Source: Aeromicrobium fastidiosum
Lineage (GTDB): Bacteria; Actinomycetota; Actinomycetes; Propionibacteriales; Nocardioidaceae
Assembly: GCF_017876595.1 (NCBI RefSeq)
Contig: NZ_JAGIOG010000001.1
Location: 2,728,001 to 2,792,000, forward strand
Reading direction: 5' to 3'
DNA length: 64,000 nt
The notes beneath the pieces were generated by a model. The model saw only the letters and a program-made list of their open reading frames with translations. It was not told the DNA's origin and did not search any database. Position 1 is the stretch's first letter. Every line of letters begins with the position of its first letter. The translations under genes and the position numbers were made by a program. Positions 13,767 to 18,814 of the stretch are shown here, piece after piece.

Positions 13767-13829
13767 CCGCGCTGCTCTGACCCCTCTGCCCTGACGGTCC
13801 GGCCTGACGGTCCGGCCCATGAGAGCCCT

Positions 13830-13857
13830 CTCATCCGCGGCTCACGTGGGGCTCACG
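13830..13857 (+). promoter_or_regulatory. Putative response-regulator operator: three 11-bp-phased repeats
   Basis: CTCATC (13830), CTCACG (13841) and CTCACG (13852) are spaced exactly 11 bp apart, oriented toward the secreted-protein gene at 13908. Direct repeats at one helical turn are typical of OmpR-family regulator sites. A matching CTCATC pair with the same 11-bp spacing lies before the two-component operon at 18740-18756. A CATGAGAG/CTCTCATC dyad overlaps the first repeat. Confidence 0.5.
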
Positions 13858-13907
13858 GGGCGGCGTGAGTCTTGCTCTGTCAGCACGACCCCGACAGAGG
13901 AGACATC

Positions 13908-14279
13908 ATGAAGACACTCGTACGCGCCGGCATCGTCACCGTGGCCGCCACCGTGGGCCTGGGCACGGCAGGGTTCGCCGTGGCCAGTGCCAGCACCGCC
14001 GACACGCAGGAGCCCGTCGTCGTCAAGCGCGAGGACACCTCGTCGTCGTGGACGCAGTCGACCGACGTCGACGACGACCTGCGCGACGACCTCGACGACG
14101 TGGACGGCGTCGATTCGCCGACGGGCAGCACGGTCAACACCGTCAACACGACGGCGACCAAGAACACCGCGCCGACCAAGAACACGCCGACCAAGAACAC
14201 GCCGACGGGCAACACCGTCAAGACGGTCCCGTCGATGCCGACCAAGAACACCGCACCGACGTCCGCGACGGGCGACTGA
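13908..14279 (+). CDS. Secreted small protein with acidic and Thr-Asn repeats
   Basis: I do not recognise a family. The 123-residue product has a clear signal peptide (MKTLVRAG, hydrophobic core, cleavage near ASAS at about residue 30). A short acidic block (DVDDDLRDDLDDVDGVD) follows, and then a tail built of repeated TKNTPTKNT-like units encoded by tandem 15-bp DNA repeats around 14155-14220. GAGGAGA (13897-13903) precedes the ATG. The kinase gene starts 4 bp after the stop, so both are probably co-expressed from the promoter carrying the CTCAT/CTCAC repeats. The acidic block recalls the Asp-rich protein of the two-component operon. Confidence 0.7.
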   Translation: MKTLVRAGIVTVAATVGLGTAGFAVASASTADTQEPVVVKREDTSSSWTQSTDVDDDLRDDLDDVDGVDSPTGSTVNTVNTTATKNTAPTKNTPTKNTPTGNTVKTVPSMPTKNTAPTSATGD

Positions 14280-14283
14280 GTCG

Positions 14284-15135
14284 ATGTCCGACACCTGGGG
14301 CCTGGCCGGGGGCGACACGATCGCCCCCGGCCTCACGGCCGTCCGCGCCGTCGGCGGCGGCGAGGTCTACGAGGCGTGGCTGGCCTTCGACGAGCGCCTG
14401 CATGCGCCCGTCGTGGTCAAGCTGATGCGACCCGGCCACGTCGACGTCGAGAGCTCGCGCACGGGACTGCTGCGGGAGGTCGAGATGCTGTCATGCCTCA
14501 ACCATCCCGGTGTCGTCCGCCTCTTCGCCTACGACGACGAGGCGGAGCGCCCGTACCTCGTGCTGGAGAACATCGACGGGCCCAATCTCTCGTCGCTGAT
14601 CAGCAAGCACGGCTACCTGCCCCTGCACCAGCTGCTGCCGCTGGGCCTCGAGCTGAGCTCGGCCCTGCACTACCTGCGCCACGAGGGCGTCTGCCACCTC
14701 GACGTCAAGCCCAGCAACGTCATCATGGGGGCACCTGCCAAGCTCATCGACCTGAGCGTCGCGATGCCCGTCGTTGAGGCCCGGGCGCTCGACCACCCCG
14801 TCGGCAGCGACGAGTACATGGCCCCCGAGCAGTGCCTGCCGGGGGAGCAGGGGACGATCGACCACGCCAGCGACATGTGGGGCCTGGGAGCGACGATGTT
14901 CCGCGCCGCGGCCGGCTACCGGGCCTTCGACCGCGAGCCCCGGTGGCAGCAGCTGACGACGGATCCCGCGCCGTTGCCGCACTTCGTGCCGACCGCTCTC
15001 GGCGACCTGATCCTGGCCTGCCTGGCCCCCGATCCCACCGACCGGCCCCTGCCGTCCGACGTCGCCGGAGCGCTGGAGCCGATGCTGGAGCGTCTGCCGC
15101 AGGCCCGCCTGTCCGGCTTCAAGATCTCCCGCTGA
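14284..15135 (+). CDS. Soluble Hanks-type serine/threonine protein kinase, divergent
   Basis: A 283-residue single-domain kinase without membrane span or sensor domain. Visible motifs are a degenerate glycine loop (AVGGGEVYEAW), the ATP-anchoring Lys at 46 (VVVKLM), a helix-C Glu near 65, the catalytic loop HLDVKPSNV (D140, K142, N145) and an activation segment ending in YMAPEQ. The magnesium-binding DFG motif reads DLS (D156). Catalysis is plausible since the Asp is kept, but the substitution is unusual. It follows the secreted repeat protein by 4 bp. Substrates are unknown. Confidence 0.82.
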   Translation: MSDTWGLAGGDTIAPGLTAVRAVGGGEVYEAWLAFDERLHAPVVVKLMRPGHVDVESSRTGLLREVEMLSCLNHPGVVRLFAYDDEAERPYLVLENIDGPNLSSLISKHGYLPLHQLLPLGLELSSALHYLRHEGVCHLDVKPSNVIMGAPAKLIDLSVAMPVVEARALDHPVGSDEYMAPEQCLPGEQGTIDHASDMWGLGATMFRAAAGYRAFDREPRWQQLTTDPAPLPHFVPTALGDLILACLAPDPTDRPLPSDVAGALEPMLERLPQARLSGFKISR

Positions 15136-15147
15136 CGGTGCGGCTGA

Positions 15148-15200
15148 CCTTGAGACATCCGGGTCGTCCCAGTGACCACAAAGACTCACCGTCGGTGCCC
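15148..15200 (+). repeat. Intergenic palindromic repeat, copy 1 (degenerate)
   Basis: This copy starts CCTTGAGAC, contains GGGTCGTCCC and ends with an AGACTCA arm. It belongs to the family of four related elements in this window and is the most decayed near its 3' end. It lies just after the kinase stop codon. Confidence 0.65.
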
Positions 15201-15210
15201 ACGCCGACTG

Positions 15211-15264
15211 AGCTTGAGACTTTCGGGTGGTCCCGGCGACCCGAAAGTCTCAAGGTCAGTCCCA
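15211..15264 (+). repeat. Intergenic palindromic repeat, copy 2, probable bidirectional terminator
   Basis: The arms 15213-15228 and 15239-15254 form a perfect 16-bp stem (CTTGAGACTTTCGGGT and its complement) around a 10-nt loop. It is followed by the family trailer GTCAGTCCC. It sits between the convergent kinase gene and the minus-strand gene ending at 15256, where a bidirectional terminator is expected; no U-tract is present. Confidence 0.75.
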
Positions 15265-16125
15265 GCCGGCGCTGCGGAGCAGACGGGTCAGCTGGTCGGC
15301 GACGAGCGCCTTCTGGTGACGGGTCGCGTACGACGTGAACGCGATCAGGCGTGGCCCGCCGATGACGACCTCGTTGGCCCGGACGACGTCGGCGCTCCAC
15401 TGCTGCACCTCGAGATGGGGCAGTCCGTGGATCTCGACAGCGACGTCCCACGCGTCCCACCCGGCATCGAGGTAGTAGCGACCGGTCGGGCTCCGGACGG
15501 CTCGCTGCCGGGACGGCGCTGGCAGCCCGGCACCTCGACGGATGTCATCGAAGTCGCGCTCGGGCAACGACTGCACCCCGCCGCCGGCATCGAGCACCGA
15601 TTCCCGCACGAGCGCCCGCCGCCGCATCGGTCCGCGCCGCGCCAGTGCATCGTGGACGGTCCGGGCGGCGACCAGACCCTGCTGGAACGCGGCGAGCACG
15701 ATCGCCACAGCCTGCCGGTCAGAGGTGGCCCACGCCGCCGCGTCCACGACGCTGCGCGCCGACCTCGTCCGACGTGGCACGAGCAGCGGGTGGACGTCGA
15801 GGTCGCCGAGCTCGGTGCTCCAGTGGGGGACGAGCCCGGCCAGACCACTGCTGGGCCGCTTCGAACCCTCCGGCTGGACGACATCGGTGTGCGGTGGTGC
15901 GAAACCGGTGAACCCGTCGAGCCGCAACGCCGACAGTCCCGCCAGTGCCGACCGCGGCGCGCACGCGTGGAGCCGGACCACGTCGAGCTCGTCACGACTC
16001 AGAGGCCCGTTGTGGTCGACCACGACGCCACGCGCCGGACGCTGCCACCGACCCGCGGCGATCGCGTGGCGGACGGCGGACCGCCCATGGTCGGCGACTG
16101 CAGTGCCTGTCCTCATGACCGTCAT
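15256..16125 (-). CDS. AbiEi antitoxin-like protein with C-terminal DUF559/VSR-like domain
   Basis: A 289-residue protein. The N-terminal region (HGRSAVRHAIAAGRWQRPARGV...) resembles the winged-helix of AbiEi-type proteins. The C-terminal 80 residues (YYLDAGWDAWDVAVEIHG ... RLIAFTSYATRHQ) resemble the small restriction-endonuclease-like domain of DUF559/VSR proteins, with D and E positions at the expected strand. Such proteins are common and often multicopy in actinobacteria; their function is undemonstrated. No AbiEii-like toxin gene lies beside it. The start could also be the ATG at 16113. Confidence 0.6.
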   Translation of the reverse strand: MTVMRTGTAVADHGRSAVRHAIAAGRWQRPARGVVVDHNGPLSRDELDVVRLHACAPRSALAGLSALRLDGFTGFAPPHTDVVQPEGSKRPSSGLAGLVPHWSTELGDLDVHPLLVPRRTRSARSVVDAAAWATSDRQAVAIVLAAFQQGLVAARTVHDALARRGPMRRRALVRESVLDAGGGVQSLPERDFDDIRRGAGLPAPSRQRAVRSPTGRYYLDAGWDAWDVAVEIHGLPHLEVQQWSADVVRANEVVIGGPRLIAFTSYATRHQKALVADQLTRLLRSAGWD

Positions 16126-16219
16126 CGGGTCAGCGTGCCGCCGTCTGCGAGGTACGTCGCGTTCGCCGAGGAGTCCTGTGGAGATGCCGGGACGCCGTCC
16201 CGGTCTGTGGACCGACTGA

Positions 16220-16272
16220 TCCTGAGACCTTCGGGTCGTCCCGGCGACCTCAAGGTCTCACGATCCGTCCCT
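16220..16272 (+). repeat. Intergenic palindromic repeat, copy 3
   Basis: TGAGACCTT (16223-16231) pairs with AAGGTCTCA (16252-16260), and GGTCG with CGACC inside, giving 9 + 5 bp with a 2x2 internal loop. The trailer GATCCGTCCC matches the other copies. It lies directly downstream of the response-regulator gene and may end that operon. Confidence 0.7.
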
Positions 16273-16283
16273 ACCGTCCAAGG

Positions 16284-16943
16284 TCAGTCCACGCGGTAGC
16301 CGAGGCCGCGGACGGTCGTCACGAGGCCGGCACCCAGCTTCTTGCGGAGGTAGCCGATGTAGACGTCGACGACGTTGGAGCCCGGATCGAAGTCGTACCC
16401 CCACACCTGCGACAGCAACTGCTCCCGCGACAGGACGAGACCACGGTTGCGCATCAGCACCTCCGCCAGGGCCAGCTCACGAGCCGACAGCTCGACCTCC
16501 CGGTCGGCGACGAAGGCCCGCCGGCGGCGCAGGTCGAGCCGCACCTCGCCGACGACCAGCTCGTCGTCGGGTGCTGCCTCGCCGGGCGGGCGCAGCCGCA
16601 GCCGCACCCTGGCCAGCAGCTCGCCGAACCGGAACGGCTTGGACATGTAGTCGGCGGCCCCGCCCTCCAGCGCAGCGATCGTGTCGGTCACCGAGTCGCG
16701 CGCCGTGAGCACGATGACCGGCAGCGCGGGACGCTCCGCCGTCACGCGCTCGAGGATCGCGTAGCCGTCCATGCCCGGCAGGCCGATGTCGAGCACGATC
16801 AGGTCGAACTCGCCGGTCAGGGCGTAGTCGAGCCCCGTGACGCCGTCGTCGACGACGGTCGGCGTGAAGCCCTCCGCCTTGAGGCCCTTGGCGACGAACG
16901 AGGAGATGCGCGCCTCGTCCTCGACGATCAGGATCCGGTTCAT
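16284..16943 (-). CDS. OmpR/PhoB-family response regulator
   Basis: A 219-residue two-domain regulator. The receiver domain has the acidic pair (E8, D9), the phosphoacceptor D52 (LIVLDIGLPGMDG), T80 and K102 (MSKPF). The C-terminal winged-helix domain carries the usual ELSARELALAEVLMRN and VVDVYIGYLRKKLG motifs. Its start overlaps the stop of the histidine kinase gene (ATGA, 16940-16943), so it is the last gene of a three-gene operon. By motif matching it is the likely reader of the CTCAT-type repeats at 18740-18756 and 13830-13857. Confidence 0.94.
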   Translation of the reverse strand: MNRILIVEDEARISSFVAKGLKAEGFTPTVVDDGVTGLDYALTGEFDLIVLDIGLPGMDGYAILERVTAERPALPVIVLTARDSVTDTIAALEGGAADYMSKPFRFGELLARVRLRLRPPGEAAPDDELVVGEVRLDLRRRRAFVADREVELSARELALAEVLMRNRGLVLSREQLLSQVWGYDFDPGSNVVDVYIGYLRKKLGAGLVTTVRGLGYRVD

Positions 16944-18373
16944 GACTGCTGGCCTGCTTCCGTGCGTGGGGGGAGGGGGAGTCGGAGACGGAACGTGGCG
17001 CCCGGGGAGGCTCCGACGTCCGACGGGTCGAGGACGACGTCCCCGTGGTGCGCCTCGGCGATGGCGCAGACGATCGACAGGCCGAGCCCGAATCCCTCGT
17101 CGGACTCGTCGCCGCGGGTGAACCGCTCGAAGATCTGCGGTGCGAGCGCCGGATCGACCCCGGGGCCGGTGTCACGCACCCAGAGCTCGACCCGGCCGTC
17201 GTGCAGCCGGGAACCGATGCCGATCTCGTCGCCGGGCTGCGTGTGACGGGCCGCGTTGGCCGACAGCTGCAGCAGCGCCTGCGTGATGCGCTGCCCGTCG
17301 AGCGGCACGGTCGTGCGGGCCACGGCGTCAAGCACCCAGCGCCGTTCGGCCAGGGCCCGGGCGCGGTCGACGGCCCCGAGGGTCAGCGTCTCGACGTCGG
17401 CGGATGCCAGTCGGACGAAGTCGGGGCGCTGCGCCTTGGCGAGCATCAGGAGGTCGTTGACCAGACGCGTCATCCGCTCGATCTCGTCGAGCAGCAGGTC
17501 GCGCGTGGCGGCGACGTCGTCGGGGTCGTCGAGGTCGAGCACCTCGAGATGACCCTGCAGCACGGTCAGCGGCGTGCGCAGCTCGTGCCCCGCGTCGTCC
17601 AGCAGCTGACGCTGGGTCACGAAGGCCGACTCGAGCCGGTCGAGCATGTCGTTGAACGTCCGCTGCAGGTCGGAGAGGTCGTCGTGGCCCGTGACCTCGA
17701 TGCGCCCGCCGAGGTCGCCGTCGCTGATGCCGCGGGCGGTGTCGCGCAGCCGCCTGACGGGACGCAGCAGGCGTCCGGCGCTCCACGACGCGAGACCTGC
17801 GATGGCCAGCACCGACAGCGCTGCCAGGAGCGCGTACGTCGTCATCAGGTCGTGCAGGTCGCTGCGGCTGCCGCTGACGTCGTGGACGACCACGAACGAG
17901 CCCCGCTGGTCGCCGGCGACGACCGGCAGCACCGCGATGCGGTACTCGCGCCCGGCGATCTCGGCGGTGCGCGAGCCGCCGTCGCGCGACATCTCGGCGA
18001 CGACGCGCGGGAACTCCTCCGACTGCTGCAGAGCGGGGTCGGGCGCTCCTTGGTAGACGGGCTTGCCGGAGCTCGGGAACGCGAACAGCTGTTCGTTGTC
18101 ATCAGGCAGGTTGCGCTCGAGGAACACCTCGAGCAGCCGGTCGGCGGACGCGAACGGAGCTCCCGTCTGCGGGTCGACCTCGTTCTGCTGGAGGGCTCGG
18201 AACTCGCCGATCTCCTGGGTCAGGCTCGTGTCGATGGCCCGGTCGATGCGGCGCGACTCGACGACGTAGAGGGTCAGGCCGACCGCGACCAGGGCCAGCG
18301 AGGTGAGCAGCGCGATCGTGACGGTGAGGCGTTGCCGCACCGACAGGCGCGACAGGGCGGGGGTGAAGGGCAT
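16940..18373 (-). CDS. Sensor histidine kinase
   Basis: A 477-residue membrane kinase. One span lies at about residues 16-38, an extracytoplasmic sensor region at about 40-176 and a second span at about 177-198. A HAMP linker (LLRPVRRLRDTARGISDGDL) follows, then the HisKA dimerisation domain with H263 (DDAGHELRTPLTVLQGHL). A HATPase domain includes the N-box-like LLQLSANAARHTQPG and the G boxes LWVRDTGPGVD and GFGLGLSIV. It signals to the overlapping response regulator. The stimulus is unknown; the preceding Asp-rich exported protein is a candidate partner. Confidence 0.94.
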   Translation of the reverse strand: MPFTPALSRLSVRQRLTVTIALLTSLALVAVGLTLYVVESRRIDRAIDTSLTQEIGEFRALQQNEVDPQTGAPFASADRLLEVFLERNLPDDNEQLFAFPSSGKPVYQGAPDPALQQSEEFPRVVAEMSRDGGSRTAEIAGREYRIAVLPVVAGDQRGSFVVVHDVSGSRSDLHDLMTTYALLAALSVLAIAGLASWSAGRLLRPVRRLRDTARGISDGDLGGRIEVTGHDDLSDLQRTFNDMLDRLESAFVTQRQLLDDAGHELRTPLTVLQGHLEVLDLDDPDDVAATRDLLLDEIERMTRLVNDLLMLAKAQRPDFVRLASADVETLTLGAVDRARALAERRWVLDAVARTTVPLDGQRITQALLQLSANAARHTQPGDEIGIGSRLHDGRVELWVRDTGPGVDPALAPQIFERFTRGDESDEGFGLGLSIVCAIAEAHHGDVVLDPSDVGASPGATFRLRLPLPPRTEAGQQS

Positions 18374-18379
18374 CGTCGG

Positions 18380-18706
18380 TCAGTCGTCATCGTCGTCGTC
18401 GGGACCGTCGGGACCGTCGGGGTCGTCGTCATCGTCGTCGTAGTCGCGGGGGGCCGGGACGGTGCGGTCGAACGGCTCGTCGTCGTCATCGTCGTCATCC
18501 CCCGGCACCGGTGAAGGGGACGGGGACGTCGTCGGCGCGGGCGACGGAGCGGGAGGCGTCGTCTCGGGCCCGGGGGTGATGACGATCGGCGTGGTGTCCT
18601 GCGGGGACGGATCGGCGTCCGCAGCGACCCGCGCGACGGCCAGGGCAGCCAGCACGATCGCCACGACGGCGAGCGCGGCGGCCTGGAGCCGACGGGACGA
18701 GGACAT
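18380..18706 (-). CDS. Asp-rich exported or membrane-anchored small protein
   Basis: I do not recognise a family. The 108-residue product begins MSSSRRLQAAALAVVAIVLA, a signal sequence or single anchor. A Pro/Ser/Thr-rich stretch follows and then an extremely acidic C-terminus with three poly-Asp runs of 6-7 residues, encoded by GAC/GAT microsatellite-like DNA at 18383-18505. It ends 6 bp before the histidine kinase gene, making it the first gene of the operon. Cation binding or acting as an accessory sensor are guesses. An ATG at 18724 is an alternative start, but it leaves no room for a promoter after the operator. Confidence 0.68.
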   Translation of the reverse strand: MSSSRRLQAAALAVVAIVLAALAVARVAADADPSPQDTTPIVITPGPETTPPAPSPAPTTSPSPSPVPGDDDDDDDEPFDRTVPAPRDYDDDDDDPDGPDGPDDDDDD

Positions 18707-18739
18707 GGCCCAACCCTGCCGCATGCACCCCGCGGCGTC

Positions 18740-18756
18740 GATGAGGTGCCGATGAG
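18740..18756 (-). promoter_or_regulatory. Putative autoregulatory operator of the two-component operon
   Basis: Read on the minus strand, CTCATC occurs twice with 11-bp spacing (first bases at 18756 and 18745), preceded by CTCT, and lies 34 nt before the ATG at 18706. Orientation toward the gene and spacing match the repeats at 13830-13857. Confidence 0.5.
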
Positions 18757-18814
18757 AGAGTTCTTAGGTTCGACCAGCCACGGCGGGCGGCGGCGCGTGT
18801 GGCACAGTTTTCCC

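Follow-up and report, generated by a model that had tools for sequence, protein, structure and literature searches.

Phased CTCAY operators mark a probable autoregulated two-component regulon with a Hanks-type kinase and acidic secreted proteins in Aeromicrobium

Several described systems offer points of comparison for the locus reported here, and the papers cited for them are drawn on through excerpts of their text. In Pseudomonas aeruginosa, the activator of the BqsRS (CarRS) two-component system reads TTAAG(N)6TTAAG arrays, with four units at one BqsR promoter of which the last overlaps the -35 site (PMC4682146), and the sensor of the pair carries an extracytoplasmic ExxE motif on a helix (PMC12666569). 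BqsS is activated by Fe2+ in vitro. The UzcRS system of Caulobacter crescentus has a metal-responsive activator with N6-spaced half-sites, 52 of its 66 genes coding for exported or membrane proteins, while the actinobacterial protein UipA of Microbacterium, which is anchored in the membrane and has tandem PepSY domains and a negatively charged face, binds uranyl (both from the review PMC8963506). Here we describe a locus in a 64,000-nucleotide stretch of the Aeromicrobium fastidiosum genome (family Nocardioidaceae; assembly GCF_017876595.1, contig NZ_JAGIOG010000001.1, positions 2,728,001 to 2,792,000 of the forward strand), which is called the window throughout. CTCAY words repeated at steps of 11 base pairs (bp) precede two units at this locus: an operon for an Asp-rich exported protein, a membrane histidine kinase (the sensor) and an OmpR-type regulator, and a unit for a small secreted acidic protein with a conserved KRED stretch and a soluble Hanks-type Ser/Thr kinase. 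Very probably these belong to an autoregulated two-component regulon that comprises its own operon, the KRED-kinase unit and remote genes for secreted RTX and PepSY proteins. At the level of sequence, genome comparison shows the operator, the gene order and a near-dependence of the operator on the sensor.

The likeness to BqsRS lies in tandem pentamers with a 6-bp gap, arranged in arrays that reach the -35 region (inferred here), and in an ExxE motif in the extracytoplasmic sensor domain (here in 35 of 37 sensors). On the other hand, the word is CTCAY instead of TTAAG, the organism belongs to a different phylum, and the Hanks-type kinase, the KRED protein and the Asp-rich and RTX targets are extra. 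By analogy, the cassette would work like BqsRS. It is kept apart from that system in classification, the word being different and the likeness being drawn from operator layout and ExxE. UzcRS is not known to be accompanied by such a kinase cassette. The UzcRS half-sites given in the excerpted review, 5'-CATTAC-N6-TTAA-3', also differ from those of the cassette, and UipA is likened to the PepSY target by description, both being tandem. CutRS of Streptomyces is, like the cassette, an actinobacterial two-component system, and serves secretion stress; it was rejected as a known counterpart, the CutR consensus being TAWATAAA (PMC12802291, in excerpt) against CTCAY at 11 bp here. No paper on the present system appeared among the literature matches listed, which covered open-licence PMC articles by title and start of abstract.

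At the locus the two units are convergent, with an unrelated gene (15256-16125) between them (Table 1). Four nucleotides separate the small acidic gene from the kinase gene, and the histidine kinase and regulator genes overlap by ATGA. The combination of a receiver and Trans_reg_C winged-helix regulator with a HisKA/HATPase_c membrane kinase places the pair in the OmpR/PhoB family of two-component systems, and the best solved match of the regulator is PrrA. An earlier note on this DNA had assigned the genes of both units, and the open reading frame (ORF) coordinates and Pfam domain matches bear these assignments out. Neither small acidic protein (KRED or Asp-rich) was matched by Pfam, and the KRED protein had no NCBIfam match either. 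The note had also pointed to CTCAT/CTCAC repeats phased at exactly 11 bp before both units. The positions agree: on the forward strand before the kinase unit, units begin at 13830 (CTCATCCGCGG), 13841 (CTCACGTGGGG) and 13852 (CTCACGGGG), in steps of exactly 11, and on the reverse strand before the sensor operon at 18756 (CTCATCGGCAC) and 18745 (CTCATC), again a step of 11. The phasing is also conserved across genomes, as described below.

Within the window, the pattern CTCAYN6CTCAY has three matches against 0.54 expected, a count reached by one of 100 shuffles; the whole 3.93-Mb genome holds 18 matches against four for the reversed pattern. The exact triple has three matches in this genome and 43 in 27 of the 49 genomes of the Aeromicrobium genus set, where the reversed triple has none, and the longer form CTCTCAYN6CTCAY occurs 74 times against seven reversed, 50 of the 74 lying at the cassette itself. 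Among 245 family genomes, 169 contain the exact triple. The excess of repeats is thus modest in the window alone and very strong across genomes. Four of the 18 genomic pair matches were found to be two identical inverted copies (L009 and L015; G000:C1:243500-252000 and 2541500-2549500), possibly ribosomal RNA operons.

The presence of the operator was found to follow that of the sensor. Using an orthologue cut-off of 200 bits, and scoring sensor fragments in G032 and G036 as present, sensor orthologues were detected in 32 of the 49 genus genomes and kinase orthologues in 24, all within those 32. Exact triples occur in 26 of the 32 sensor-bearing genomes and in one of the 17 sensor-less ones (Fisher p = 3e-7), and triples remote from the cassette in 13 of 32 and one of 17 (p = 0.018), values that are not tree-corrected and overstate independence because the genomes are related. 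The same dependence is seen target by target when upstream regions are scored for the 12 CTCA letters of the triple. All nine close PepSY orthologues in sensor-bearing genomes reach at least 11/12 (five are exact), against 7/12, which is background, for the close orthologue in sensor-less G047; more distant PepSY genes stand at 11/12 in four of four sensor-bearing cases and in none of four sensor-less ones. All six close RTX orthologues in sensor-bearing genomes carry the exact triple, and an RTX relative in sensor-less G029 scores 8/12. Altogether, the operator is present at 19 of 19 sensor-bearing and none of six sensor-less loci (G029 included), a tally that leaves out three weak operator-less RTX loci (L180, L181 and L196). 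Ten RTX loci were covered by this reading, and PepSY matches below 34 bits (L162-L172) were left out. Among shuffled upstream regions, 0.1% reach 11/12. The recognition helix of the regulator, SN[VI]VDVY[VI]GYLR[RK]K, is near-identical in 41 of 42 regulators, the 42nd being cut off. Because the repeats precede the regulator's own operon, the helix is near-identical and the triple is nearly absent without the sensor, these comparisons support control of both units by the adjoining OmpR-type regulator, as the earlier note had proposed.

Promoters within the genus keep the same arrangement. A CTCA pair at 11 bp precedes the sensor operon in 26 of 29 genus loci, each with a short Asp-rich ORF, and the 24 loci with the small gene and kinase have three units upstream in 21 cases, two in two and none in one. 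Relatives that keep the genes and lose the repeats had been set beforehand as the outcome that would speak against the operator; the opposite was found in nearly all loci read.

Outside the genus the picture is similar. The kinase is present in 121 of the 245 family genomes, spread over 18 of 26 genera, and 40 of the 97 non-genus kinase genomes (16 genera) were read over 900 bp of upstream sequence each (822 in one). These 40 comprise 24 of the 26 genomes outside g7 (G069 and G082, where the gene begins too close to the edge of a contig, were excluded) and 16 hand-picked genomes among the 71 of g7. The best kinase-side triple has all 12 CTCA letters in 30 loci, 11 in seven and 10 in three. At control spacings of 8, 9, 10, 12, 13 and 14 bp, 0-1 of the 40 loci reach at least 11/12; a spacing of 22 bp, which shares units with the true one, gives four, the reversed sequence one and the other strand none. 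A small ORF with KR[ED][DE] was detected by simple pattern in 25 of the 40. In a second sample of 15 loci from a named collection, several of which overlap with the 40 and one of which (L138) is an Aeromicrobium from the genus set, 12 have an exact triple on the kinase side, two have one TTCA unit in it and L138 has two units. Of the 13 sensor promoters read, 12 carry an exact pair and the 13th had just 177 bp of flank; a phased degenerate third unit, NCCAY, is frequent there. Kinase, regulator and sensor genes stand together and convergent in 14 of the 15 loci; the 15th is cut by a contig end. Among 394 genomes of the class, the kinase was also found in four genomes of three other families. 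G470 has kinase, regulator and sensor together with arrays of 11/12 on the kinase side and 9/12 on the sensor side, in G278 two 11/12 arrays stand back to back between a kinase and a divergent sensor-like gene, and the remaining two had no array by the search used.

In a gapless alignment of the promoters anchored at the first CTCA, the groups have ATGAGAG or (C/A)TAAGAAC in common at -11, and a weak -10-like hexamer begins at +37 or +38, a distance constant within 1 bp. These -10-like elements, like the signal peptides and small-protein families mentioned here, were judged by eye. The ATGAGAG slot is a possible fourth, degenerate half-site. At the sensor promoter the distance to the -10-like element is kept despite the degenerate third unit, and the start codon of the Asp-rich gene lies 6 nucleotides after that element; its transcript is probably leaderless. 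With the -35 region placed by reference to the -10-like element, the layout would fit activation by dimers reaching the -35 region.

Table 1. Operators, promoter elements and genes of the locus and its remote targets in A. fastidiosum (positions in the window).
Feature	Position	Strand	Basis
Triple operator CTCAT-N6-CTCAC-N6-CTCAC, before kinase unit	13830..13856	+	Sequence, conservation
Operator pair CTCAT-N6-CTCAT, before sensor operon	18741..18756	-	Sequence, conservation
ATGAGAG, conserved slot 11 bp upstream of first CTCAT	13819..13825	+	Conserved across groups
CTAAGAAC, conserved -11 slot before sensor unit	18760..18767	-	Sequence and group alignment
GAGTCT, -10-like element (inferred promoter), 37 bp from first CTCA	13867..13872	+	By eye
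CAGGGT, -10-like element of sensor operon	18713..18718	-	By eye
Small secreted acidic protein, 123 amino acids	13908..14279	+	Signal peptide (by eye), conserved KRED stretch, Asp cluster, Thr/Asn repeat tail
Soluble Hanks-type Ser/Thr kinase, 283 amino acids	14284..15135	+	PF00069, 1.2e-33; catalytic motifs intact
OmpR-family response regulator, 219 amino acids	16284..16943	-	PF00072 and PF00486
Membrane histidine kinase, 477 amino acids	16940..18373	-	HAMP, HisKA, HATPase_c
Asp-rich exported protein, 108 amino acids	18380..18706	-	Single N-terminal membrane/signal segment
RTX calcium-repeat protein L010, 175 amino acids, secreted	remote		PF00353, 5e-30
Tandem-PepSY lipoprotein L012, 200 amino acids	remote		PF03413, NF051432

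The operator also extends beyond the locus. The other two exact triples in the window's genome precede the remote genes L010 (RTX) and L012 (PepSY). Across the genus, 22 of the 43 triples occupy the place before the kinase unit (in G036 on a truncated contig with no kinase seen), four precede small acidic genes adjoining the sensor (G012, G019, G041 and G042), one lies in sensor-less G040 and 16 are remote from the cassette, all of these in sensor-bearing genomes. Behind the 16 remote triples are six RTX orthologues, five PepSY orthologues, three aminotransferase-like genes, one bactofilin-like gene and one unclear case. In other family members, 20 remote places hand-picked among the matches listed were read, and behind 14 of them is a gene whose product has a recognisable signal peptide, of the PepSY, RTX, KRED-like, bactofilin-like or ~130-residue small secreted type. 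Of the six others, three have no -11 slot and are apparently chance matches, and three stand before genes for a phosphotransferase-like, a short Arg-rich and an unassigned protein. These comparisons indicate that the "island" of the earlier note is the core of a larger regulon. Its proposal of a single circuit stands insofar as a shared operator ties the two units; the circuit is wider than those two units, and beyond co-regulation of its gene the signalling role given to the kinase is putative.

Several of these targets have features of their own. For the PepSY target, the only solved relatives found were 2lra and 2kgy, each a "possible exported protein", which we take to be Mycobacterium tuberculosis Rv0603, adjoining the TcrA sensor system. 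The excerpt seen of a paper on the TcrA region names Rv0600c-Rv0603c and contains no motif (PMC10743970). A PepSY_MTB family search of 14 control genomes returned one match, in B. subtilis, below the cut-off. Secreted proteins that resemble bactofilins by eye lie behind the triple at L257, L258, L259 and L088, and ~130-residue secreted proteins with a core like KDDGRFEVEVDIDDA (by eye) at L249, L252, L255, L261 and L262, in five Nocardioidaceae genomes. At the aminotransferase-like loci L087, L092 and L108 the CTCAC triple is conserved but the -11 slot is missing, and in G033 a CTCTCA pair with neither third unit nor -11 slot precedes a secreted protein (L093). The window's genome also contains a ~3424-codon open frame with many RTX repeats (G000:C1:82339-86091).

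A number of observations weigh against a regulon of this kind, in addition to the relatedness of the genomes compared. G011 and G025 have neither operator nor Asp-rich gene at the sensor operon, yet carry the same recognition helix; G012 shows just one good unit there, and the kinase unit of G003 is preceded by no array by the search used in the genus loci. Two weak RTX-repeat matches in sensor-bearing genomes (G045 and the second G020 copy) are without operator, at 8/12. The three family loci that reach merely 10/12 are matched by five of 40 reversed sequences, the reversed triple occurs in 16 of the 245 family genomes, and some true matches there are simple tandem repeats. The 456-residue aminotransferase-like gene behind triples in G007, G026 and G039 is unlike a secreted-protein regulon, and most remote pairs lacking a third unit have no secreted-protein gene behind them and look accidental.

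According to the mechanism we propose for the autoregulated regulon, the membrane kinase would sense an extracytoplasmic signal and phosphorylate the regulator, dimers of which would bind head-to-tail to the 5-bp CTCAY half-sites at 11-bp steps. The third unit begins ~15 bp before the weak -10 element, a geometry suggesting that RNA polymerase is recruited and transcription activated. Targets would be the regulator's own operon with the Asp-rich protein, the KRED protein with the Hanks-type kinase, and the remote RTX and PepSY genes. The acidic exported proteins may bind cation outside the cell and so damp the signal in a feedback. That the Ser/Thr kinase passes the response to other cytoplasmic proteins or tunes the regulator is a doubtful further step.

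It is a serious contender that the kinase and KRED genes are mere passengers of the regulon with no part in two-component signalling. Eight sensor-bearing genus genomes, some of them fragmentary, had no kinase orthologue detected, and G012, G041 and G042 keep the triple and the small acidic gene beside the sensor with no kinase. Against this, all 24 kinase-bearing genus genomes have the sensor, genomes outside the genus preserve the gene order, and the Hanks-type residues (K46, H138, D140, D156 and P181-E182) are present in 43 of 43 aligned loci, one genome being counted twice. A PASTA kinase of the PknB/Stk1 type was rejected as an identity for this protein: Pfam finds the kinase domain only, NF033483 scores 99.8 of 450 bits, and the highest 19-residue hydropathy mean is 1.62.

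As for the signal, a multivalent cation or a related surface-charge or envelope stress is tentatively favoured, because four regulon proteins are strongly acidic (isoelectric points of 4.05-4.48 for whole precursors), calcium repeats and PepSY domains occur among the targets, and the two best analogues in function, BqsRS and UzcRS, are metal-responsive. A protein-secretion or cell-wall stress signal of the WalK, CssRS or CutRS kind is nearly as likely, the acidic proteins then being by-products or a surface coat. The extracytoplasmic sensor domain (residues ~34-174), modelled alone with a predicted local distance difference test score of 93.5, is closest to the extracellular domain of WalK/YycG (Z 10.8, root-mean-square deviation 3.7 over 126 residues), with CusS at Z 8.3 and PhoQ at Z 7.7, values at which the similarity may reflect no more than a shared arrangement. 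With this model, Foldseek found two matches at 0.001 or less. The best 50 matches of the full-length model were histidine kinases and related proteins, which are uninformative on the sensor domain. We claim no more than that the modelled domain resembles a PAS/Cache-like arrangement. A stress signal would also suit targets that are secreted proteins of varied kinds, and the G033 pair match precedes the L093 protein, which seems to resemble a resuscitation-promoting factor, a cell-wall enzyme. On the other side stand the four acidic proteins, among them the RTX calcium-repeat (PF00353) and PepSY proteins, and among the genes read behind exact triples none was recognised by eye as coding for a protease, foldase or cell-wall enzyme. 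The ExxE motif lies at residues 54-57 in the first helix of the sensor domain, where an acidic helix may hold it by chance; as a parallel to iron-sensing kinases it is a lead, not proof. H263 of the sensor is invariant in 37 aligned sequences. The best NCBIfam matches of regulator and sensor, to the heavy-metal subfamily TIGR01387/TIGR01386, are under the cut-off (198.9/279.2 and 195.6/292.55 bits).

It is rather improbable that a different, unlinked regulator, such as another OmpR-family paralogue, binds the repeats and controls both units. The window's genome does have 14 histidine-kinase matches, and in sensor-less G014 and G001 (L156 and L157) a PepSY-type gene stands beside another sensor kinase with TTCAG-type repeats seen by eye; therefore related regulators with similar words exist. 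Those two loci suggest that which operator word is used depends on the local regulator. The CTCAY operators, however, are found before the operon of the adjoining regulator itself and hardly occur where its sensor is lacking, and its recognition helix is near-identical wherever the word is the same. That the phasing is an accident of chance or of shared local composition, CTCAY pairs being common, could draw on the small excess in the window alone (three against 0.54) but is refuted by the 43 true and zero reversed triples in the genus and by the spacing control, in which 37 of 40 loci qualify at 11 bp against 0-1 at six other spacings.

The gene lying between the two units (15256-16125, reverse strand) codes for 289 residues with no Pfam or NCBIfam match, and is flanked on both sides (15152-15262 and 16224-16270) by related repeats of the form GAGAC-TTCGGGT-GTCCCGGCGACC. 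Judged by gap sizes, extra room between kinase and regulator exists only in the window's genome, G044 and G018. G044 has a 73% identical counterpart in the same place and G018 has no match. The gene with its flanking repeats looks like a small inserted element. It was overlooked in the earlier note, as were the -11 slot, the equidistant -10-like element and the two further genomic targets.

Taken together, the locus looks like part of a real but uncharacterised cell-surface response circuit. It gathers unannotated acidic secreted proteins of the Nocardioidaceae in one defined candidate regulon, whose regulator and operator are named, and related species that lack the sensor offer a natural comparison. 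The locus also provides a clean case for studying wiring between two-component and Ser/Thr kinase signalling, and raises the question of whether Asp-rich exported proteins of low complexity buffer cations outside the cytoplasm. An unlikely extension is a three-branch surface-sensing circuit in which the regulator couples the sensor, a cytoplasmic Hanks-type kinase that cross-phosphorylates the regulator or its partners, and secreted Asp-rich, RTX and PepSY proteins that bind multivalent cations and feed back on the sensor. If true, this circuit would serve cation homeostasis in actinobacteria, would be convergent with BqsRS and would occur in roughly half of the family genomes searched.

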